Shown here: in pieces, positions 16,796 through 59,826 of the stretch
How positions within the stretch are numbered: position 1 is the first letter of the stretch
Layout of the letters: each line of letters starts with the position of its first letter
From: Siphonodentalium dalli
Lineage: Eukaryota; Mollusca; Scaphopoda; Gadilida; Siphonodentaliidae
Assembly: GCA_032622095.1 (NCBI GenBank)
Contig: CP136061.1
Coordinates: forward strand, 8,274,447-8,338,446
Direction of reading: 5' to 3'
Length of the DNA stretch: 64,000 bases
Position numbers and translations under genes: made by a program
Notes under the pieces: model-generated
What the model was told of the DNA's origin: nothing
What the model saw: the letters and a program-made list of their open reading frames with translations, nothing else
Databases searched by the model: none

Positions 16796-17026
16796 CTCGC
16801 ACAGCATCGAACATCGCCCTCCGGAAGACAGCCTGGCAGATCAGCACCCTGATAGGAGGCGTCGCACCACGTGCTGTTGATGGGAATCGTAACTCTAACT
16901 GGGCAGGGCGGTCATGTACTCACACGAGTGTCGCGAGTACAGGTCAGATCAATCCTTGGTGGATCGTTGACTTGGGCGAAATTTACGTAATCAAACATTG
17001 GATAATCGTCAACAGGGCGACGTTTG
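16796..17026 (+). CDS. Exon 2: N-terminal half of F-type-lectin-like (F5/8 type C) domain
   Basis: 231 bp, 77 codon equivalents, phase 1 at both ends: acceptor TTGTTTCAG at 16787-16795, donor TTTG|GTAAGT at 17026/17027. The peptide has the landmarks of the F5/8C-type fucolectin fold: SNIALRKTAWQ, AVDGNRNSNW, SCTHT, NPWWIVDLG and IVNRATFG. In classical F-type lectins the NR is followed by GD and paired Cys as part of the fucose-contact motif; here it reads NRATFG, so the Asp and Cys pair are missing and fucose binding is doubtful. Follows the signal-peptide exon at 1816 and joins in frame to the exon at 20679. Its mirror paralogue is 59602-59826 on the minus strand. A short tandem array begins only ~10 bp after the donor. 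Confidence 0.88.
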
Positions 17027-17035
17027 GTAAGTCTC

Positions 17036-17220
17036 ATCCGCTAAAATGTCCAATTAAGGATGTGTGTGCTAAAATGTCATATTGAGGCAGGTTGTGTGCG
17101 AAAAACTGTCATATTAAGGCGAGCTGGTGCGCTAAAATGCTCTACTATTGCCAGTGTTGCGCTAAACTGTCCCATTACGTTGGGATGTTTGCACTAAACT
17201 TTCTATTGAGGGTGATGTAT
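17036..17220 (+). repeat. ~35-bp degenerate tandem repeat just downstream of exon 2 donor
   Basis: GCTAAAATGTC-type cores (GCTAAAATGTCC, GCTAAAATGTCA, GCGAAAAACTGTCA, GCTAAAATGCTC, GCTAAACTGTCCC, CACTAAACTTTC) recur every 30-40 bp, each followed by ATTA or ATTG. Six degenerate units. Confidence 0.75.
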
Positions 17221-19645: not shown

Positions 19646-20678
19646 TTTAAACGGTAATTTTCATTTGTATACGACGGATCTGACACTGATCGGTAGCTTA
19701 GTTCTGTATGTAAGCCCATGTATGCTGCATCAATAATGTTAGGCACTGTGCCTTCGCTGTAATGAACAGATCATGGATTCAAATAATGCAGTACTGTGTA
19801 TATACTGATCCCCACATGTGATGCCATAGAGACCAAGTCACATAAGAGCAACTTTAGAAAAAAAACTTTTCCCGTTGTATGTAATATATTGGAACAAACT
19901 AGATTTCGCAGTCTAATCTAAGTTGGCTACCGGCTTAAATAAACATATCACTAAGCTACCGATTCACCCCCCCCCCCAATTATTGTAATTATGGAAAACG
20001 ATAGCTGAAAATGATCCAATGCAGAATCAGGTGTGGATATAGTGACTTGTACTGAGATTTAGAAATCACACATCCGCGAACGCAATTGGCGCATGTCGCT
20101 ACGTTACGAAGATGCGCACATTTGTATACAATCTTATACAATGAGCATATCTCCGAACTATTTAATAGACTTTCCGAATTTATAAATATAGCACTGAATC
20201 ACTTAGTACTTGCAAAGATGTCAGACAATTTTTTTGGACAGGTATAAACACTGGCATAATTATAATATTAGTGCCAGAGGCTACTCCCCACAAATATTTA
20301 CACACTAGCCACCCACCACAAATATCTAAACACCCGACACCCCACATCATCTACCAATATATACACACCAGCCCCCCCCCCACACACGTCATCTACACAC
20401 CACACCAACCACTCCCCGCCCACCACAGTACATTCTGTTTTTCATGTACCTAATTGCTAATAGTTCTGCTATCATACAATGATAATGTATTTGTTGCACA
20501 CGTTACAGGAGCGTGACTCCGTGTAAGTTGTAAACACAATTTGCCTCAATTCCATGTGTATGCATTATTCATATACATTAAACTATGCTTGTAGTATCTG
20601 CAAACATAACTTTAATTTCATGATTCAAGTTTCTGAATTAGGTTAAGTGAAGTGATTTGCTTTTGTATTGTGTTCCAG
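19646..20678. other. Intron 2 sequence, CA/C-rich tracts only
   Basis: A C-run lies near 19968 and a CACCA/CCACAC-rich stretch at 20275-20430. No gene. Confidence 0.4.
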
Positions 20679-20924
20679 GATATCGCCTTAACAATTTCAC
20701 TATAGACGTGTCAATCACATATGGACCTGAAGGAGGATTGTTCAATGACCGGTGTTACCACTACCCCGGGACTGCGCCCAGTGGAGCCACACTAGACGAG
20801 CCTTGTAGTGGAGGCGTTATCGGAAGATATGTGAAAGTTCTAAAGATTGGACCAATACAAACAGGCGATCTGACCTTGTGTGAAGTGGAATTGTACGGCA
20901 AGCCATGCCCCGATTATGATCCAG
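20679..20924 (+). CDS. Exon 3: C-terminal half of F-type-lectin-like domain
   Basis: 246 bp, phase 1 on both sides: acceptor TTGTGTTCCAG ending 20678 and donor CCAG|GTGAAT after 20924 (weaker than GTGAGT). The peptide starts GYRLNNFTIDVSITYG, continues FNDRCYHYPG, SGATLDEPCSGG, RYVKVLKIG and ends TLCEVELYGKPC, which is the usual C-terminal signature of F5/8C fucolectin-like domains (calcium-loop/cystine region and the final CEVEVYG strand). With exon 2 it completes one domain of about 150 residues. It is exactly as long as its minus-strand paralogue at 39783-40028 and about half identical by eye. The next exon is the PAN-like exon at 29400. Confidence 0.9.
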
Positions 20925-21048
20925 GTGAATTTAGACAGTCATAAAAGGACGTCCAGACAAATGTGGGGTCTCAACGCGCTAATTTGGCCAAAATGTTCAG
21001 CGGTTGGAAATTAGATCACATTTCAGACCGAAAATAGTTTGCATCCAT

Positions 21049-36640: not shown

Positions 36641-36656
36641 GGATGCAGACAATGAA

Positions 36657-36858
36657 GTAGTAAGTTGTCCACCCATCAGCTACCACATTGAAGTATTTGT
36701 CCACCCATCGGCTACCACATTGAAGTAGTAAGTTGTCCACCCATCGGCTACCACAATGAAGTAGTAAGTTGTCCACCCATTAGCTACCACAATGAAGTAG
36801 TAAGTTGTCCACCCATCGGCTACCACATTGACATAGTTGTCCACCCATCAGCTACCTC
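36657..36858 (-). repeat. 36-bp tandem copies of the PAN exon 3' end
   Basis: On the minus strand GTAGCTGATGGGTGGACAAC (the VADGWTT codons of the PAN exon) recurs six times; most units are 36 bp, the first only 32 and another 31. The short first unit shifts the frame, so the exon now ends MSMW-stop, while the last unit reads on as VADGWTTYYFIVCIQ in another frame. Confidence 0.9.
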
Positions 36859-37037
36859 TTCGGCATTCACGGTTTTGATACGTTGACATTCTGATGTGGC
36901 GTGATTGTAGTTGAGTGATCTGCACACTGGGGCCTCCTTCATGCACAAAGTTACACAGTGCAACTCACTCCGTGCAATTCCAATCACGTTTGGCTGTCCC
37001 GAAGACTTCATGTTGTTTCTTAAAATCTGATGCCGTG
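36820..37037 (-). CDS. Terminal PAN/apple-like exon of minus-strand lectin-like gene
   Basis: Acceptor CTTTTAG lies just above 37037 on the minus strand; phase-1 entry gives ARHQILRNNMKSSGQPNVIG, then SELHCVTLCMKEAPVCRSL, NYNHATSECQRIKTV and ADGWTTMSMW, stop TAG at 36820-36822. The four Cys and the CRSLNYN...SEC spacing are PAN/apple-like. It follows the lectin exon at 39783-40028 in phase and order, exactly as in the plus-strand gene. Unlike the plus copy it has no internal stop, but the final Cys of the module (PCW in the plus copy) is lost from the frame because tandem duplication of the exon end shifted it. A ~95-bp array abuts the acceptor side and a 36-bp array the 3' side. Confidence 0.8.
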
Positions 37038-39782: not shown

Positions 39783-40028
39783 ATGGCATGATGCTGGTCC
39801 AATGTTGGCCGTACACTTCCACTTCACACAGGGTTAAAGGAGAGTTATCTGTTTGTCCAATCTTTTGCAACTTCACATATTGGCCGACAAGGTTTCTTGA
39901 ACATGGCAGCTCTTGCGTGGCTCCATCTGGAAAACTTCCTGGGTAGTCATGGCAACGATCATTCAAAACACCCTCACCATTTTTGTACGTGAAATACACG
40001 TCTATTGTGAAATTGTTGAGGCGATTGC
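39783..40028 (-). CDS. C-terminal half of F-type-lectin-like domain, minus-strand gene
   Basis: 246 bp, phase 1 both sides: acceptor TTTTGTTCCAG above 40028, donor CCAT|GTGAGT below 39783. Peptide GNRLNNFTIDVYFTYKNG, LNDRCHDYPGSFPDG, QELPCSRNLVGQYVKLQKIG and LTLCEVEVYGQHW. All core landmarks of the fucolectin-like C-terminal half are kept; the terminal GKPC of the plus-strand copy is GQHW here, so that Cys is missing. Downstream partner is the PAN exon at 36820-37037; the N-terminal half lies 19.6 kb upstream at 59602-59826, with the satellite and two retrotransposons in between. A diverged extra copy of its 3' end is at 39383-39466. Confidence 0.9.
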
Positions 40029-40204: not shown

Positions 40205-40242
40205 ATAAGTTCAACGACGCATGGTCGTGAATTGAACTTATT
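40205..40242. repeat. Short hairpin at start of satellite
   Basis: ATAAGTTCAA...TTGAACTTAT arms with an ACGAC/GTCGT inner stem; the right arm merges into the first satellite unit. Confidence 0.6.
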
Positions 40243-40947: not shown

Positions 40948-41362
40948 ATTTTAAATGCTCATCCGATCAAAATTATGTCATAACCAAGGTAATTATAACG
41001 CTTTCTTATCATTGAGTTATAAATGGAAATTTGCTTCGTAATTCACGCCGTGAACATGGGAAAATCCGCGCATGGTCACTAACAGAAATAAACTTCGTTT
41101 ATAGGCTTAGAACTCAATTTCGAAAGCTATATCCCTTAATCACTTGAAATCCTGTAAACAATTTCCTGAGTTCACGGTGTGAAACTATTAAAACTAATTT
41201 TCTTACAAAAGAAAAAAATTACTATGAAAACATATATGCATCTTACAATGTATAAAACTGTTTACAGGCGCAACGTCGTGTGCAGACCGAACTCAAACCA
41301 CTGGTATATGCTAACCGATCTGAACAAGGGCATAAATGTTATTACAAATATCATGAAACCAC

Positions 41363-43885
41363 ATGATGGCCACAAATAACGTAACACTGAGTGAGGTTAG
41401 GGAAGCGCTTAATTTCGATCTTGCCGCCAAATGGGCTAGCCTAGAGGAAGACGAAGAACCAACTTTGTTCATTTTTGATAAAAACAATTGCCGTTACTTC
41501 TCAACTTTACAAGCAAAGGATATTCTCAACAAGAAGAATAAACTGTCAATGTTTGGTCTTAACTGCAGAAGCCTCAATGCAAATTTTGAAAATTTACAAA
41601 ATCTTTTATGTGACATGAAAATCAATGACAACAATCTTGATATAATAGCGCTAACCGAAACATTCAAAATACACCAAGCATCGGACTTTAAACTCTCCGG
41701 TTATCATCCCATAGAATTTAAATCAAGGCCTGATCACGATGATGGTAGGGGTGGTGTTGGTATTTACATAAGAGACACTATTACGTATAAAAACAGACCC
41801 GATCTATCAATATTTATCCCCCATGTTATTGAAACTGTGTTCATTGAGCTTGAATTCGGAAAACATGAAATATATATCATAGGATGTATTTATAGACCTA
41901 ACACGGCACCAAAAGCTGACTTTGACAAGTTTGCCTCTAAATTTGACGAACTCTTAGATATAATAAAAAATCATAAGACTTATATAATCGGTGATTTCAA
42001 TATCGATCTACTAAATTTCGATGCGCACAATAAAACAAACGACTTTTTAAACAATGTATTCACACGAGGATTCGTGCCCATGATAACAAAACCGACAAGA
42101 ATGACCGATCACTCAGCGACCCTTATCGATCATATATACACAAATAATCTTCGAAACGAACACTGCTCTGGTATAGTTACATGTGATTTGTCAGATCACT
42201 TTGGGGTATTTCTCACTGACACCGAAGGTCATAACGGACATAACCGATTCAAAAACCCACATGAAATAATGCGCACTCCCAGACGAAACTTTTCCCAAGA
42301 AAATATTAATAAATTCAACGATACTCTTAAATCGTGTAATTTCCATTCGGTTTGTAATTGTAATAATATAGATCAAGCATACGAAAACTTTTTGGATATC
42401 TATTTGACAGCATACAATGTAGCTTTTCCGCCCATTAACCGAAACATACCCAAAAAAATCATCAAACGCGAACCATGGATGACCACCGGATTAATAAGAT
42501 CTTCACTTAAGAAACAAGAACTATATACCCATAAACTAAGCTCGCCCTCCTCCATCCATACGAATTCCTACCTCAAATATCGACAACTATATAACAAACT
42601 TATCCGGAAAAGTAGAAGCATGTATTACTGTGAGATATTAGAAAAAAATAAGTATAGTTTAAAAGAAACATGGAAGACCCTCAAATGTGCAATAAAACGA
42701 GACAAAAATACGGGTGGCTACCCGAATGTTCTACATGATAACAACATACAATTTACAAATCCTGACACTATCGCTGAAAAATTTAATGACTATTTTTCCA
42801 ATATAGGTCAAAAAACCACAGAACTTATTGAAAATCACACAGATGTAAACTTCCTCGATTATTTAACGAATAGACAAAGCAACGAGCTAAATATTACGCC
42901 CACCACAATCCAAGAGGTTATTTTAACTTGCTACTCAATGAATGGAAAAACCAGCAGTGACTTTAATGGAATATCTACAAAACTGATGAAGGAAACCATA
43001 TTTTCTGTAGCACCAGCATTAAAGCATATATTCAACTTGTCGTTCAAACAAGGTCATGTTCCTAACAAAATGAAAATAGCTAAAGTTGTACCAATACCGA
43101 AAAATATTGACAAGGGGGACATAAACAATTATCGTCCAATAAGCATTCTTCCCGAATTTTCTAAACTACTCGAAAAACTCATGCAAAAACGTTTAGTTGA
43201 TTTTCTTAATGAATCGGACATCTTATTTAAACATCAGTACGGATTTCGCCCAAACCATTCAACTTTTCATCCCATCATTCATCTACTGGATCATGTTGTA
43301 AAAAATAACGACAAGCCCACGAAAGATTCCACCGTAGTCCTTTTTCTTGATCTGTCCAAAGCTTTTGACACAATAAACCACGAAATCTTACTTACAAAAC
43401 TTGAACATTATGGAATTAGAGGCATGGCAAACAACTGGTTTCGAAGCTATCTCAATGAGAGACGACAATACGTAGAATTCAATGGAAGCAAGTCAAATCT
43501 CCTAAAAACATCATCTGGTGTTCCTCAGGGCTCCTTACTCGGGCCCATAATATTTCTCCTCTACGTGAACGATATGTCAAATGCAACTACTATGGATCTC
43601 TTATCATATGCCGACGATACAACCCTTGTGGCCAGTGGACAAAATGAAGCGTTAATCCAAAGTTATGTCAATAACGAATTAAGAAATCTATCTGACTGGT
43701 GTTGCTGCAACAAACTAGCCATCAATGCTAACAAAAGCAATTATATGCTCTTGCATCCACAAAACAATGACAAAAAATGGAATACAATTAAAATATATCT
43801 CAATGGAGCCGAACTTCTACGGATAGGGAACATGCGGAGCGAATCGTCTGCCAAATCTTTAGGTATCCATATAGATGAAACCTGA
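41363..43885 (+). CDS. EN-RT polyprotein of non-LTR element, main frame
   Basis: 840 codons. Apurinic-type endonuclease, about residues 62-285: LNCRSLN (Asn67), ALTET (Glu99), GGVGIYI, IYRPN, IIGDFN (Asp211, Asn213), ATLIDHIYT and LSDH (Asp278, His279), all catalytic positions present. Reverse transcriptase, about 560-790: [41 protein letters not shown] and SYADDTT (YADD 749-752). A Cys-rich SDWCCCNKL follows. The frame is closed by TGA at 43883, where a one-base indel separates it from the remaining C-terminal part at 43882-44496. The motifs place it in the CR1/L2/Jockey-like set; I cannot name the clade without a tree. Near-complete motifs argue for recent activity. Confidence 0.93.
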
Positions 43886-44496
43886 CCTTTAATAAACACA
43901 TTTCTATTGTATGCTCAAAAATGGCACATGCAATTTATTGCATTAATAAAGTTAAACATTTTCTCCCGAGCAAGGCTCTCAAAACATTATACTTCGCCAT
44001 AATTCAAAGCCACTTAGTTTATGGCATCCAAATATGGGGACATGTGCCAGCAGTGAAGAAACTATATTTATTACAAAAACGAGCCATGAGAATTATATGT
44101 AACAAAAAATATAGAAGTCACACCGATCCTCTTTTCAAACAAGAAAACATTTTAAAAATAAATGATTTACATAAATTACATGCATCCATTTTCATGCATG
44201 ATTGGTACTACGATCGCGTACCAGTGTCTTTTTCTGGTATGTATGACAAGAGAGCAGAACCAAATAGACGACAACTTAATCCTATAGTACAAAACAAATT
44301 CAGGACCATCTCTTTTTCTAAAGTTCTCCCATACCATTCATTCCCCTTTATGTGGAATTCCCTTGAAAGTAAATATACCTCTAAACAATCAAGACATGTG
44401 TTCCGAAAACGTTTGAAAACGGATATCATTAATACCTATCCAGCTAGCGTGCGATGCAAAAACCGAAGATGCCCTGATTGCACAAACGATACATAA
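43882..44496 (+). CDS. C-terminal part of the EN-RT polyprotein, shifted frame
   Basis: Continues as [20 protein letters not shown] in the frame beginning at 43882; the first Met is at 43921. Comparison with copy 2, where DENKSFKKHIS is continuous, shows only one missing base. The domain ends in CKNRRCPDC, a conserved Cys cluster also present in copy 2 (CKNRGCPDC), probably nucleic-acid binding. The frame ends at TAA 44494-44496 and an AAAAAAC-rich stretch follows. Confidence 0.9.
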
Positions 44497-48632: not shown

Positions 48633-51600
48633 ACTTTAAACTTATGATCTAAACATTCCATATAGGATAACTACCAATCAACGATGATTTAGAATAGAAA
48701 GGGTTAAACTTATGATCTGAACGTTTAATATAGGATAACTACTCATCAATGATGATTTAGTATAGAAAGGGTTAAACTTATTATCTGAACATTTCATATA
48801 GGATAACTACTCATCAATGATGCTTCAGTATAGAAAGGGGTAAGCTTGTGATCTGATCATTTCATATACGATAACTACTCATCAATGGTGCTTAAGTATA
48901 GAAAGTGTTACACTTATTATCTGAACATTTCATATAGGATAACTACTCACCAATGATGCTTTAGTATAGAAAGGGGTAAACTTGTGATCTGATCATTTCA
49001 TATACGATAACTACTCATCAATGATGCTTTAGTATTGAAAGGGTTAACTTATGATCGATTCATTTCCTATGGGATGACTACTCATCAATGATGCTTTAGT
49101 ATAGAAATGGTTAAACTTATTATTTGAACATTTCCTATGGGATAACTACTCTTCAATGATGCTTTAGTATAGAAAGGGTTAAACTTATTATCTAATCATT
49201 TCATATAGGATAACTACTCATCAATGATGATTTAGTATATAATGGGTTAAACTTATTATCTGAACAGTTCAAATATGATAACTACTCATGAATGATGCTT
49301 TAGTATAGAAAGGGGTAATCTTATGATCTGAACATTTCATATAGGATAACTACTCATCAATGATGCTTTAGTATAGAAAGTGTTAAACTTATTATCTGAA
49401 TATTTCATATATGATAACTACTTATCAATGATGCTTTATTACAGAAAGGGTTAAACTTATGATCTAAACATTTCATATAGGATAACTACTCATCAATGAT
49501 GATTTGGTATAGAAAGGGTTAAACTTATTATCTGAACTTTTCATATAGGATAACTACTCATCAATGATGCATCAATGATGCTTTAGTATAGAAAGGGTTA
49601 AACTTATGATCTAAACATTTCATATAGGATAACTACTCATCAATGATGATTTAGTATAGAAATGCTTAAATTTATGATCTAAACATTCCATATAGGATAA
49701 CTACCCATCAGTGATGATTTAGAATAGAAAGGGTTAAACTTATGATCTGAACATTTCATATAGGATAACTACTCATCAATAAATGGTGATTTAGTATAGA
49801 AAGGGTTAAACTTATTATATGAACATTTCCAATGTGATAACTACTCACCAATGATGCTTTAGTATAGAAAGGGTTAAACTTATGATATAAACATTTCATA
49901 TAGGATAACTTCTCATCAATGATGCTTTAGTATAGAATGGGTTAAACTTATTATCAAAACATTTCATATAGGATAACTTCTCATCAATGATGCTTTAGTA
50001 TAGAATGGGTTAAACTTATTATCAAAACATTTCATATAGGATAACTTCTCATCAATGATGCTTTAGTATAGAAAGGGTATACATATGATCTAAAAATTTC
50101 ATATAGGATAACTTCTCATCAATGCTGATTTAATATGGAAAGGGTTAAACATATTATATGAACATTCCTTGTGGGATAACTACTCATCAATGATGCTTTA
50201 TTACAGAAAGGGTTAAACTTATGATCTAAACATTCCATATAGGATAACTACCAATCAACGATGATTTAGAATAGAAAGGGTTAAACTTATGATCTGAACA
50301 TTTAATATAGGATAACTACTCATCAATGATGATTTAGTATAGAAAGGGTTAAACTTATTATCTGAACATTTCATATAGGATAACTACTCATCAATGATGC
50401 TTTAGTATAGACAGGGGTAAGCTTGTGATCTGATCATTTCATATACGATAACTACTCATCAATGGTGCTTAAGTATAGAAAGTGTTACACTTATTATCTG
50501 AACATTTCATATAGGATAACTACTCACCAATGATGCTTTAGTATAGAAAGGGGTAAACTTGTGATCTGATCATTTCATATAGGATAACTACTCATCAATG
50601 ATGCTTTAGTATAGAAAGGGTTATCTTATGATCGATTCATTTCCTATGGGATGACTACTCATCAATGATGCTTTAGTATATAAATGGTTAAACTTATTAT
50701 TTGAACATTTCCTATGGGATAACTACTCTTCAATGATGCTTTAGTATAGAAAGGGTTAAACTTATTATCTAATCATTTCATATAGGATAACTACTCATCA
50801 ATGATGATTTAGTATATAATGGGTTAAACTTATTATCTGAACAGTTCATACATGATAACTACTCATGAATGATGCTTTAGTATAGAATGGGGTAATCTTA
50901 TGATCTGAACATTTCATATAGGATAACTACTCATCAATGAGGCTTTAGTATAGAAAGTGTTAAACTTATTATATGAATATTTCATATATGATAACTACTT
51001 ATCAATGATGCTTTATTATAGAAAGGGTTAAACTTATTATGTGAACTTTTCATATAGGATAACTACCCATCAATGATGCTTTAGTACAGAAAGGGGTAAA
51101 CTTATGATCTGAACATTTCATATAGGATAACTACTCATCAATGAGTGTTTAGTATAGAAAGTGTTAAACTTGTTATCTGAACATTTCATATAGGATAACT
51201 ACTCATCAATGATGATTTAGTATAGAAAGTGATAAACTTATGATCTAAACATTTCAAATAGGATAACTACTCATCAATGGTGCTTTAGTATAGAAAGGGT
51301 TAAACTTATGATGTAAACATTACATATTGGATAACTACTCATCAATGATGATTTAGTATAGCATGGGTTAAACTTATTATGTGAACATTCCTTATGGGAT
51401 AACTAGTCATCAATGATGATTTAGAATAGAAAGTGTTAAACTTATGATCTATACATTTCATATAGGATAAGTGCTCATCAATGATGATTTTGAATAGAAA
51501 GGGTTAAACTTATGATCTGAACATTTAATATAGGATAACTACTCTTCAGTGATGATTTAGTATAGAATGGGTTAAACTTATTATCTGAACATTCCTTATG

Positions 51601-54600
51601 GGATAACTACTCTTCAATGATGATTTAGAATAGAAAGTGTTAAACTTATGATCTATACATTTCGTATAGGATAACTACTCATCAATGATGCTTTAGTATA
51701 GAAAGGGGTAAGCTTGTGATCTGATCATTTCATATACGATAACTACTCATCAATGGTGCTTAAGTATAGAAAGTGTTACACTTATTATCTGAACATTTCA
51801 TATAGGATAACTACTCACCAATGATGCTTTAGTATAGAAAGGGGTAAACTTGTGATGTGATCATTTCATGTACGATAACTACTCATCAATGATGCTTTGG
51901 TATAGAAAGGGTTAACTTATGATCGATTCATTTCCTATGGGATGACTACTCATCAATGATGCTTTAGTATAGAAATGGTTAAACTTATTATTTGAACATT
52001 TCCTATGGGATAACTACTCTTCAATGATGCTTTAGTATAGAAAGGGTTAAACTTATTATCTAATTATTTCATATATGATAACTACTCATCAATGATGATT
52101 TAGTATATAATGGGATAAACTTATTATCTGAACAGTTCATACATGATAACTACTCATGAATGATGCTTTAGTATAGAAAGGGGTAATCTTATGATCTGAA
52201 CATTTCATATAGGATAACTACTCATCAATGATGCTTTAGTATAGAAAGTGTTAAACTTATTATCTGAATATTTCATATATGATAACTACTTATCAATGAT
52301 GCTTTATTACAGAAAGGGTTAAACTTATGATCTAAACATTTCATATAGGATAACTACTCATCAATGATGATTTAGTATAGAAAGGGTTAAACTTATTATC
52401 TGAACTTTTCATATAGGATAACTACTCATCAATGATGCTTTAGTATAGAAAGGGTTAAACTTATGATCTAAACATTTCATATAGGATAACTACTCATCAA
52501 TGATGATTTAGTATAGAAAGGCTTAAATTTATGATCTAAACATTCCATATAGGATAACTACCCATCAGTGATGATTTAGAATAGAAAGGGTTAAACTTAT
52601 GATCTGAACATTTCATATAGGATAACTACTCATCAATAAATGGTGATTTAGTATAGAAAGGGTTAAACTTATTATATGAACATTTCCAATGTGATAACTA
52701 CTCACCAATGATGCTTTAGTATAGAAAGGGTTAAACTTATGATATAAACATTTCATATAGGATAACTTCTCATCAATGATGCTTTAGTATAGAATGGGTT
52801 AAACTTATTATCAAAACATTTCATATAGGATAACTTCTCATCAATGATGCGGTAGTATAGAATGGGTTAAACTTATTATCAAAACATTTCATATAGGATA
52901 ACTTCTCATCAATGATGCTTTAGTATAGAAAGGGTATACATATGATCTAAACATTTCATATAGGATAACTTCTCATCAATGCTGATTTAATATGGAAAGG
53001 GTTAAACTTAATATATGAACATTCCTTATGGGATAACTACTCATCAATGATGCTTTATTACAGAAAGGGTTAAACTTTTTATCTAAACATTCCATATAGG
53101 ATAACTACCAATCAACGATGATTTAGAATAGAAAGGGTTAAACTTATGATCTGAACATTTCATATAGGATAACTACTCATCAATGATGCTTTAGTATAGA
53201 AAGGGGTAAGCTTGTGATCTGATCATTTCATATACGATAACTACTCATCAATGGTGCTTAAGTATAGAAAGTGTTACACTTATTATCTGAACATTTCATA
53301 TAGGATAACTACTCACCAATGATGCTTTAGTATAGGAAGGGGTAAACTTGTGATCTGATCATTTCATATACGATAACTACTCATCAATGATGCTTTAGTA
53401 TAGAAAGGGTTAACTTATGATCGATTCATTTCCTATGGGATGACTACTCATCAATGATGCTTTAGTATATAAATGGTTAAACTTATTATTTGAACATTTC
53501 CTATGGGATAACTACTCTTCAATGATGCTTTAGTATAGAAAGGGTTAAACTTATTATCTAATCATTTCATATAGGATAACTACTCATCAATGATGATTTA
53601 GTATATAATGGGTTAAACTTATTATCTGAACAGTTCATACATGATAACTACTCATGAATGATGCTTTAGTATAGAAAGGGGTAATCTTATGATCTGAACA
53701 TTTCATATAGGATAACTACTCATCAATGATGCTTTAGTATAGAAAGTGTTAAACTTATTATCTGAATATTTCATATATGATAACTACTTATCAATGATGC
53801 TTTATTACAGAAAGGGTTAAACTTATAATCTAAACATTTCATATAGGATAACTACTCATCAATGATGATTTAGTATAGAAAGGGTTAAACTTATTATCTG
53901 AACTTTTCATATAGGATAACTACTCATCAATGATGCTTTAGTACAGAAAGGGGTAAACTTATGATCTGAACATTTCATATAGGATAACTACTCATCAATG
54001 AGTGTTTAGTATAGAAAGTGTTAAACTTGTTATCTGAACATTTCATATAGGATAACTACTCATCAATGATGATTTAGTATAGAAAGTGTTAAACTTATGT
54101 TCTAAACATTTCATATAGGATAACTACTCATCAATGGTGCTTTAGTATAGAAAGGGTTAAACTTATGATGTAAACATTTCATATTGGATAACTACTCATC
54201 AATGATGATTTAGTATAGCATGGGTTAAACTTATTATATGAACATTCCTTATGGGATAACTAGTCATCAATGATGATTTAGAATAGAAAGTGTTAAACTT
54301 ATGATCTATACATTTCATATAGGATAAGTGCTCATCAATGATGATTTTGAATAGAAAGGGTTAAACTTATGATCTGAACATTTAATATAGGATAACTACT
54401 CATCAATGATGATTTAGTATAGAATGGGTTAATCTTATTATCTGAACATTCCTTATGGGATAACTACTCATCAATTATGATTTAGAATAGAAAGCGTTAA
54501 ACTTATGATCTATACATTTCATATATGATAACCACTCATCAATGATGATTTATTATAGAATCGGTTAATCTTATTATCTGAACATTCCTTATGGGATAAC

Positions 54601-54928
54601 TACTCACCAATGATGATTTAGTATAGAATGGGTTAATCTTATTATCTGAACATTCCTTATGGGATAACTACTCATCAATGATGATTTAGAATAGAATGGG
54701 TTAAACTTATTATCTGAACATTTCTTATGGGATAACTACTCATCAATGATGATTTAGTATAGAATGGGTTAAACTTATTATCTGAACATTTCTTATGGGA
54801 CAACTACTCATCAATGAAGATTTAGTATAGAATGGGTTAAACTTATTATCTGAACATTCCTTATGGGATAACTAGTCATCGATGATGATTTAGAATAGAA
54901 AGTGTTAAACTTATGATCTATACATTTC
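48633..54928 (+). repeat. 68-bp satellite, block 3, with higher-order repeats
   Basis: About 92 units. Distinct variants recur in register: the GGGGTAAGCTTGTGATCTG variant at about 48837, 50413, 51710 and 53206; the ACCAATCAACGATG variant at about 48675, 50250 and 53105; the insertion ATAAATGG at about 49787 and 52635. This implies higher-order units of about 1.3-1.6 kb that have been duplicated repeatedly. Confidence 0.95.
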
Positions 54929-56452
54929 AATTTTAAAGGGATAACCACTAAACTCACGAAGAAAACAATTGAAACCATAGCTCCGGCATTGAAACATATA
55001 TTTAACCTCTCATTTGAACAAGGAATTGTCCCAGAAAAGATGAAAATAGCAAAGGTTGTTCCAATACCAAAAAATAACAATGCACACGAAATTTCCAACT
55101 ACAGACCAATCAGCATGCTACCTACTTTTTCCAAGATATTAGAACGAAAAATGCAAAACCGCCTAATAAATTTTTTAACTGAGCACGATATTTTGTACAA
55201 GCACCAATATGGCTTCCGTCCAAACCACTCTACTTTTCATCCAATCGTACATCTACTCGACCAAATAGCCAATAGCAATGATAAAACAGCAATAGCACTA
55301 TTTCCAGACCTCTCTAAGGCATTTGACACTATAAATCATGATATATTAATCTCAAAATTATATCATTACAGGATAAGGGGTACTGCCCTATCTTGGTTCC
55401 AAAGCTATCTAGACAACATACGACAATATGTTGAACTACAGGGAAATAAATCCAAACTAATGGACATAACGTGCAGAGTCCCTCAAGGCTCCATACTCGG
55501 CCCCATAATTGTTTTAATCTACGCTAACGATATGACAAACGCGACAAGCATGAATATATTGTCTTACGCAGATGATACCACCTTAATGACTAGCGGGGAT
55601 AACGGTACTCAAATTGAAAGATATGTGATACGTAATATATACACCTGGTGTTGCTGCAATAAGCTTTCTATAAACTTATTAAAGAGCAATTATATGCTCA
55701 TGCACCCGGAAAATAACGACACCAAATGGAGCACTATGAAAATTCTCTTAAATAACACAGAATTGAAACGTATATGAAATCGTGAGCACGAAACCTCAAC
55801 GAAATGTGTAGGCATTCACATAGATGAAAATAAATCATTTAAGAAACACATATCATCAGTCTGCTCCAAATTAGCGCACGCCATATATCATATAAACAAA
55901 GTCAAAAACTTTTTCCCAGGCAGCGCCCTTAAAACGTTATATTATGCCCTAATCCAAAGTCACTTGGTATATGGAATCCAGATATGGGGCCATGTTCCCG
56001 AGGTAAAACGAGTTTTTTTTACTACAAAAAAGGCAATACGAATTGTGTGTAATAAAAAATACAGGAGCCATACCGAACCTTTGTTTAAAAAAGAAAATAT
56101 CTTGAAAGTATACGACCTTCACAAAGTCCATACTACCCTATTCATGCATGACTGGTATTACAACCGCCTGCCAGAATCCTTTTCCCAAATGTTCACTAAA
56201 CGTATTGCCGGACCGGATACTAGACAACAGCGCCCATTATTCCTCAAAACCCCGAGAACCTCCTTTTCTGAACAGCTACCATTTCATGCATTCCCAACCT
56301 CATGGAACAACTTAGATAACACTATGACTAAAAATCAAAGTAGGCACGTATTCAAAAAACACATCACAGGGAAAACAATAAGCGCATATTCTAACGATAT
56401 CAAATGCAAGAATCGAGGATGTCCAGACTGCCCCCAGAACGAACCCCGTTAA
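54929..56452 (+). pseudogene. RT and C-terminal coding relic of copy 2
   Basis: One frame runs from NFKGITTKLT through [47 protein letters not shown] and SYADDTT. A TGA at 55775-55777 replaces the Gly codon seen in copy 1 (RIGN). After it the same frame continues to CKNRGCPDC and the stop near 56452. The first DLSKAFD Leu is Pro here, and one short segment (VFFTTKKA against LYLLQKRA in copy 1) looks like a pair of compensating indels in T- and A-runs near 56010. The endonuclease is missing, so it is dead on arrival. Confidence 0.88.
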
Positions 56453-58814: not shown

Positions 58815-59062
58815 TTAAACTATTTCTACAGACGCCTTCCTTGTCTCCGAGCAACCGTAAGCTCCCCCACTAATTAATATGTGTGAAAACCTCCATTTGA
58901 TTCAAACTTTACGAACATTTCACAATATATCGCCGAATACGACAATTTCGTTTGAGCTCGATTGGAAACGATAATTGAAAACATATCGGTATTCGATATG
59001 ATGTGATACATTTTGACGTCTATACACGTTTACAAGTCTACCCGATTTGGACCTTTAGCGGA

Positions 59063-59655
59063 TTCAAACTTACCGAACATTCCTGCCCTGTTGGTGATTA
59101 CCGTATTAGTGACCTCGTAGAATGCTAATTCAAACTTACTGAACATTCATGCCCTGTTGGTGATTACCGTATTAGTGATGTCGTAGAATGCTAATTCAAA
59201 CTTACCGAACATTCCTGCCCTGTTGGTGATTACCGTATTAGTGATGTCGTAGAATGCTAATTCAAACTTACCGAACATTCCTGCCCTCTTGGTGATTACC
59301 GTATTAGTGATGTCGTAGAATGCTAATTCAAACTTACCGAACATTCCTGCCCTCTTGGTGATTACCGTATTAGTGATGTCGTAGAATGCTAATTCAAACT
59401 TACCGAACATTCCTGCCCTCTTGGTGATTACCGTATTAGTGATGTCGTAGAATGCTAATTCAAACTTACCGAACATTCCTGCCCTGTTGGTGATTAACGT
59501 ATTAGTGATGTCGTAGAATGCTAATTCAAACTTACCGAACATTCCTGCCCTCTTGGTGATTACCGTATTAGTGATGTCGTAGAATGCTAATTCAAACTTA
59601 CCGAACATTCCTGCCCTGTTGGTGATTACCGTATTAGTGATGTCGTAGAATGCTC
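59063..59655 (-). repeat. 66-bp array copying the end of the lectin exon with its splice donor
   Basis: Nine units spaced exactly 66 bp. On the minus strand each reads TTCTACGACATCACTAATAC, GGTAATCACCAACAGGGCAG, GAATGTTCG|GTAAGT and TTGAATTAGCA. Donor GTAAGT lies at 59601-59596 and then at every 66 bp down to 59073-59068. Being 22 codons long, the unit stays in frame (AFYDITNTVITNRAGMFGKF); GGA to TGA in the eighth closes the frame near 59147. Unit variants AAC/AAG (NRA or KRA) alternate. Confidence 0.95.
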
Positions 59656-59826
59656 CCAAGTCAACGATCCACCACTGATGGTACTGAAACGCCGAAGACG
59701 TACATGATGCGGCGGCAAAGTCGGAATTGTGATCACCGTCTACTGCACGGGCAGCGACGCCTCCCTTCATGGTAGTACTCTGCAACGCATCCTTCCCGAG
59801 GGCGACGTTCGACCATTCCGAGCGAG
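59602..59826 (-). CDS. N-terminal half of F-type-lectin-like domain, minus-strand gene
   Basis: 225 bp, phase 1 both sides: acceptor TGTGCTCCAG above 59826, first donor TTCG|GTAAGT after 59602. Peptide ARSEWSNVALGKDALQS, GGVAARAVDGDHNSDF, SCTSS, QWWIVDLGAFYDITNTVITN and RAGMFG. Paralogue of 16796-17026; the fucolectin-type SCTHT and NPWW are SCTSS and HQWW here, and the NRGD-type fucose contact is NRAG, so ligand binding is uncertain. If splicing skips the first donor, the exon can extend through up to seven further 22-residue units, ending at any of the in-frame donors. Joins in phase to 39783-40028. The signal-peptide exon should lie above 59826 but was not found; the frame also runs on upstream to an ATG at 59875, which is probably fortuitous. 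Confidence 0.88.

Follow-up and report, generated by a model that had tools for sequence, protein, structure and literature searches.

Can a gene in which the end of an exon and its splice donor have been copied in tandem, with the reading frame kept, make a ladder of protein lengths, or does such an array normally leave the message with the intron? This question is raised by a 64,000-bp stretch of the genome of the scaphopod mollusc Siphonodentalium dalli (GenBank assembly GCA_032622095.1, contig CP136061.1, positions 8,274,447 to 8,338,446; hereafter the window, in whose coordinates positions are given), where a predicted F-type-lectin-like gene on the minus strand carries a 66-bp tandem array across the border between an exon and the following intron. 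We find that the array is very probably a minisatellite that straddles the donor and would normally be removed as intron, as judged from the DNA and its comparison with paralogous loci. It looks like ordinary repeat growth in which the reading frame was kept by chance.

Examining the array with Tandem Repeats Finder (TRF), we observe 9.0 copies with 97% matches, 0% indels and a score of 1123, which is far beyond chance (Table 1). Each unit consists of the last ~54 bp of the F-type-lectin-like exon followed by 12 bp of intron: the exon (59826-59602) ends in ...ATCACCAACAGGGCAGGAATGTTCG|GTAAGT, and from there the sequence repeats with the 66-bp period GTAAGTTTGAATTAGCATTCTACGACATCACTAATACGGTAATCACCAA(G/C)AGGGCAGGAATGTTCG, which is translated in the exon frame as GKFELAFYDITNTVIT(N/K)RAGMF. 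An earlier note on this DNA had described a tandemly repeated exon end in which every copy keeps a GTAAGT, and both TRF and a unit-by-unit listing bear this out, with nine intact minus-strand donors at 59601, 59535, 59469, 59403, 59337, 59271, 59205, 59139 and 59073. Eight of the nine share the central bases TCG|GTAAGT, and donor 59139 reads TCA|GTAAGT. That all donors are intact is unremarkable, as the six substitution sites in the unit miss the six donor bases with a probability of 0.56. The unit had also been called exact; its period is indeed 66 bp, but among the eight full units past the first donor only u0, u2, u3 and u4 are identical, the other four being 1 to 3 bases off these. Since the units are near-identical, the expansion or homogenisation looks recent, in agreement with what had been proposed from their homogeneity. 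The substitutions between units amount to six non-synonymous (one of them nonsense) and no synonymous changes.

The gene was modelled with three predicted exons. Both predicted junctions, 59601 to 40028 and 39783 to 37037, are in phase 1, and the first of them completes the domain across an intron of 19.6 kb. Without any insert, the model reaches 2.6e-13 against PF22633, 1e-9 against PF00754 and 1.4e-4 against PF00024 (22.1 bits, with a cut-off of 21.4), and among solved F-type lectins it matches 3cqo (3e-38) and 1k12 (6.8e-18). By whole-domain similarity it belongs to the F-type lectin domain family, and it has the mid-domain, phase 1 intron of an F-type domain (predicted donor 59601, acceptor 40028). 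The predicted model contains one such domain, then the PAN part and the stop; upstream exons were not located, none being recognised over the 4.2 kb left in the window or the 10 kb beyond it, where lists of open reading frames (ORFs) were judged by eye and one ORF was scanned. When 0 to 6 additional units are spliced in, the model gives one open frame each time, of 228 to 360 residues and then a stop, and with 7 a TGA is encountered inside. Because this TGA (59149-59147) ends the frame, the usable donors are the seven from 59601 to 59205, adding 0 to 6 units of 22 residues. The frame had been thought to stay open for eight copies, which is off by one, and the 0 to 7 extra strands derived from it become 0 to 6; the proposed joining in phase 1 to the exon at 40028 is compatible in frame and phase over that range.

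Next, we compared the locus with its paralogues. In a profile search of the 2.2-Gb genome, 150 of 215 candidates were scored and gave at least 142 PF22633 matches, two of which lie in the window; 136 were compared and four (C5:242381263, C2:96345235, C7:167181752 and C5:80643161) were left out. Donors were placed by similarity to G|GTAAGT with an open frame, ties going to phase 1, which succeeded in 135 of the 136 paralogous exons (L076 had no donor and was dropped). Loci L170 to L173, chosen for matching an array, are excluded from all counts. Under this rule, the donor is in phase 1 in 132 of the 135 paralogues, and in 117 of them NR occurs within the last 9 residues of the exon, as at 59601. 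Judged by position and phase among these predicted paralogous exons, 59601, the first donor, holds the family position. At the other end of the array, the paralogue L035 has the intron start GTAAGTCTCATTCGCTAAAATGTCC, with similar ones in L037, L048, L086, L108 and L121, and the plus-strand window gene at 17 kb starts its intron with GTAAGTCTCATCCGCTAAAATGTCC, of the same kind as GTAAGTTTGAATCCGCTAAAGGTCC, which continues the ninth window donor. Of 135 introns, 10 contain the motif CGCYRA, which was picked post hoc, between +6 and +36, versus 25 of 1620 other 30-nt intron blocks. Since every copy carries a donor, the array has the original end of the exon on one side and the original start of the intron on the other, and since the ninth donor runs into the family-type intron start, it represents an in-situ duplication between the two.

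Upon extending the search for arrays to the other family donors, we observed that TRF arrays straddle seven of the 135 (Table 1), six of them clearly. A search for further donors covered the window and 12 chosen paralogues, and none of the six clear cases (L073, L122, L129, L133, L144 and L145), among them the 55-bp and 49-bp arrays tested (L129, L133 and L145), showed a second open in-phase donor; the L122 donor, GTAATG, falls outside the search pattern, and its second copy lies at +236, past a stop at +194. No lengthened normal protein is therefore available from these six, and the simplest reading of the paralogous straddlers is that the first donor would be used and the array would be intronic. 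A second open in-phase donor also occurs without any repeat, at +297 in L084. The 22-codon, in-frame unit of the window would be a coincidence of roughly one in three, with about eight arrays in the family.

The paralogous arrays L129, L133, L145, L170, L171 and L172 resemble that of the window in combining exon end, donor and intron start in ~2 to 50 repeats within the same domain intron (the two copies of L172 were counted by eye), but they differ in having ~34 bp of exon and 21 bp of intron and a unit of 55 or 49 bp, which is not divisible by 3. Breakpoints thus vary from ~54 bp of exon plus 12 bp of intron in the window to ~34 plus 21 in the 55-bp lineage, and those of L144 and L122 are different again, from which we infer several origins for the donor-straddling arrays. 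Further members of the 55-bp lineage lie at C1:80.135, 80.038 and 261.083 Mb, and copy number differs between paralogous arrays (within one assembly). In two of the paralogous loci, L129/L150 (C1:81994500-81998005) and L145/L151 (C1:260847104-260850600), the mid-domain intron contains the exon end and its donor ~50 times in tandem, and with units of 55 and 49 bp the downstream donors are frame-breaking. At L115 (C7:6851569-6852381), an ATC-type repeat begins close to where a lectin-like exon has its donor, and a His-rich frame continues without a stop as far as the piece extends (674 aa).

We did not find arrays to be enriched at donors, with repeats on 5.2% of donors versus 9.6 to 14.1% of the sampled intron positions from +100 to +450; repeats make up 9.3% of intron bases over that range when straddlers are left out, and within the exon their cover is 0.7% at -50 and 0% at -100 (135 paralogues). 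Furthermore, the 57-nt exon end plus donor scored above all 60 shuffles against its own downstream intron in 14 of 118 loci, whereas the same test against the adjacent upstream exon stretch did so in 3 of 118, with ~2 expected by chance; this set predates the addition of the final 17 paralogues, and the counts of donor position, straddling arrays and repeat cover use 135.

How, then, would splicing choose among the donors? The array most likely began when the final ~54 bp of the exon were duplicated in tandem together with the first 12 bp of the intron, and the resulting minisatellite then expanded and was homogenised in place. As the nine central bases are the same in eight of the nine donors, position should decide the choice. 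An intron of 19.6 kb leads us to expect exon definition, and the accessible part of PMC9225289 reports that, of two identical competing donors in five exon-defined human minigenes, the upstream one was used exclusively. Most likely, donor 59601 would be used, giving a normal domain together with the exon at 40028; the remaining copies would leave with the intron, and the downstream donors would contribute at most minor isoforms. Protein constraint between the window units shows no sign, with little power at six substitutions. In the units of the paralogous arrays, GT[AG]AGT is kept in 39 of 49 (L129), 7 of 8 (L133) and 47 of 48 (L145), and special pressure to keep donors is not established, the difference in the direction of conservation in these three being small and their copies non-independent.

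Several points weigh against removal of the array as intron. No straddler other than the window array, which has seven, offers several open in-phase donors, and the count of six substitutions is too small to rule out constraint, the neutral probability of no synonymous change being 0.25. Additionally, the donor bases are on average slightly better kept than the whole unit in L129 (0.94 versus 0.92), L133 (0.96 versus 0.89) and L145 (0.97 versus 0.89), among copies that are non-independent. In the accessible text of PMC9225289, the data are human, the downstream donor is used in ~60% of cases across all events, near-equal donors show ~60% upstream use, and the classical rule is cited by which intron definition favours the intron-proximal donor. 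Finally, the 68-bp junction duplication of CBS is spliced at the more distal site, as the accessible part of PMC2630376 describes.

Upon alignment to 1k12, the splice junction separates the two arginines of the fucose-binding motif. The 1k12 motif His, which we take to be the binding His, is located 26 residues ahead of the Arg. The accessible part of PMC5712786 gives the F-type fucose motif with HX24 spacing, followed by RxDx4(R/K). We did not find this motif in the window paralogue: relative to 1k12, CTH is replaced by CTS and NRGDCC by NRAGMF, so that both arginines are kept and the motif His, Asp and Cys-Cys pair are absent, and a non-aligned His lies six residues beyond the 1k12 His position. 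With these residues missing, canonical fucose binding by the window paralogue is doubtful. The placement of the repeats next to the ligand loop, as the earlier note had it, is right as to the junction between the motif arginines and is weakened as to the ligand by the missing residues.

Use of donors 1 to 7 in some proportion, which would place 0 to 6 extra 22-residue units in the motif loop over a range set by repeat-number alleles, would draw on seven open in-phase donors that are identical in nine central bases and on the insertion point between the arginines, and it has a parallel in the F-type bindin of oysters, which diversifies through a variable mid-domain intron and alternative splicing (accessible part of PMC5712786). 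It is nevertheless unlikely: it is not possible for any of the six clear family arrays, no protein constraint is seen between units (with little power), identical donors show upstream preference under exon definition (PMC9225289), and a unit length that, like 66, is divisible by 3 is expected by chance in 1 of 3 cases. With 59601 at the family position as well, the protein-length switch that had been proposed is not supported. Quite unlikely, too, is the proposal that minisatellites growing across the mid-domain donor continually supply variation to this large family, with the window gene yielding a ladder of 0-to-6-repeat proteins between the motif arginines that shifts with repeat number.

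A decaying gene whose array simply drifts would fit the lack of the motif His, Asp and Cys-Cys pair and of a recognised upstream exon. This seems rather improbable, since both domain exons, like the PAN exon, are predicted to be open and in phase, with a stop at the end, the domain and the PAN part score above the Pfam cut-offs, the domain matches solved lectins, and several paralogues without the DCC also keep the exon. Least of all do we expect a poison switch, in which use of 59139 or 59073 would include the unit-6 TGA and lose the message so that the array tunes expression: donors 8 and 9 do lie beyond the TGA, an intron-proximal rule holds under intron definition and donor bases are slightly better kept than the unit in three paralogous arrays, but exon definition is expected for this intron length and the slight apparent donor conservation comes from non-independent units, making the switch highly improbable.

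Donor-straddling variable number tandem repeats (VNTRs) are already known, and what is distinctive here is the in-frame unit. The human CBS 31-bp VNTR, c.1444_1467+7(16_21), straddles a donor (accessible part of PMC2630376) and resembles the window array as a many-copy tandem unit of exon end and intron start with the border in each copy (24 + 7 bp by its name); the window array likewise has exon end, donor and intron start in many tandem copies. The CBS repeat differs in having a unit length, 31 bp, that does not divide by 3, in being polymorphic in people and in involving no lectin. Similarly, CBS 844ins68 duplicates an exon/intron junction with two competing splice sites, but by its place it lies at the other end of an intron, and the more distal site is reported as chosen (PMC2630376). 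The F-lectin repeats of oyster sperm bindin share the F-type domain with a middle intron, which varies both in size and in sequence and recombines; their diversity comes from whole-domain repeats, recombination in the intron and splicing of whole repeats, and the accessible part of PMC5712786 mentions no donor array. Among the matches listed on border minisatellites or on F-type lectin repeats and donors, none reports a donor array in F-type lectins (titles and beginnings of abstracts, with subscription papers not covered). These loci show a tandem repeat engulfing a splice donor, up to dozens of copies within one gene family, and they offer a natural test of donor choice, with seven equal in-frame donors 66 nt apart in the window and ~50 in a frame-breaking paralogous array. 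Were the downstream donors used, they would give a lectin family a new way of varying in length.

Table 1. Features of the minus-strand lectin-like gene in the window, and TRF arrays across the donors of paralogous exons
Feature	Position or locus	Strand	Basis or remark
66-bp array straddling exon/intron border	59062-59654	-	TRF and unit-by-unit listing
First GTAAGT donor, family position	59596-59601	-	Unit listing; paralogue position and phase
Seventh donor, last open and in phase (six extra units)	59200-59205	-	Frame and splice-model test
In-frame TGA, unit 6	59147-59149	-	Unit listing and frame reading
Ninth GTAAGT donor, leading into family-type intron start GTAAGTTTGAATCCGCTAAAGGTCC	59068-59073	-	Similar intron starts in paralogues and in plus-strand gene at 17 kb
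Predicted exon, first half of F-type-lectin-like domain, phase 1 in and out	59602-59826	-	Acceptor CTCCAG|CT, donor TCG|GTAAGT; PF22633, PF00754; 3cqo, 1k12
Predicted exon, second half of domain, phase 1 in and out	39783-40028	-	Splice model, Pfam, structure matches
Predicted last coding exon, PAN_1-like, ending in TAG	36820-37037	-	Splice model, Pfam
36-bp tandem array over stop codon of PAN exon, second border-straddling array in the gene	36649-36856	-	TRF
Array of 15 bp, ATG-type repeat	L030		Donor call doubtful
Array of 50 bp, 2.5 copies	L073		
Array of 236 bp, 2.6 copies	L122		
Array of 55 bp	L129		49 units by stepwise alignment (ended at interruption), 61.1 by TRF, reaching end of piece
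Array of 55 bp, 7.8 copies	L133		
Array of 23 bp, 2.0 copies	L144		
Array of 49/102 bp, 48 units	L145		

Outside the window, the 66-bp unit was found at one other place, C7:41080343-41080563 (L013:2844-3064), in 3.3 copies whose identity is 90 to 91%, and no lectin exon precedes them. This copy adjoins a fragment of a dispersed repeat (found in 16 of 16 places compared), and its region (L013:2670-3160, C7:41080169-41080659) is flanked by direct repeats of ~35 bp, which together make it look like a secondary insertion. Its last full unit has the same TGA variant as window unit 6, so either there is a relationship between the two arrays or the change has happened more than once. A mobile-element origin of the window array was considered and rejected, as the unit occurs at only this one other genomic place (searches can miss copies) and the array is edged by family intron and needs no element.

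Several further features were observed in the window and its neighbourhood. A second F-type-lectin-like gene lies on the plus strand at 16870-17022 and 20651-20944 (the second part judged by eye), oriented towards the first, and a degenerate 28-bp tandem repeat follows its intron start at 17040-17119. Within the 19.6-kb intron, reverse-transcriptase-type open frames occur on the opposite (plus) strand at 41357-44496 and 54917-56452; the part from 41357 to 43885 matches RVT_1 and Exo_endo_phos, and the other intron frames were judged by eye. A 68-bp minisatellite of ~92 copies covers 48636-54929, and period-68 arrays with similar units are present at 40235, 44914 and 56843. Just beyond the window, at ~150-6050 of L149 (C1:8338447-8348446), similar peptides on opposite strands are mirrored around 3.1 kb, which by eye constitutes a large inverted repeat.
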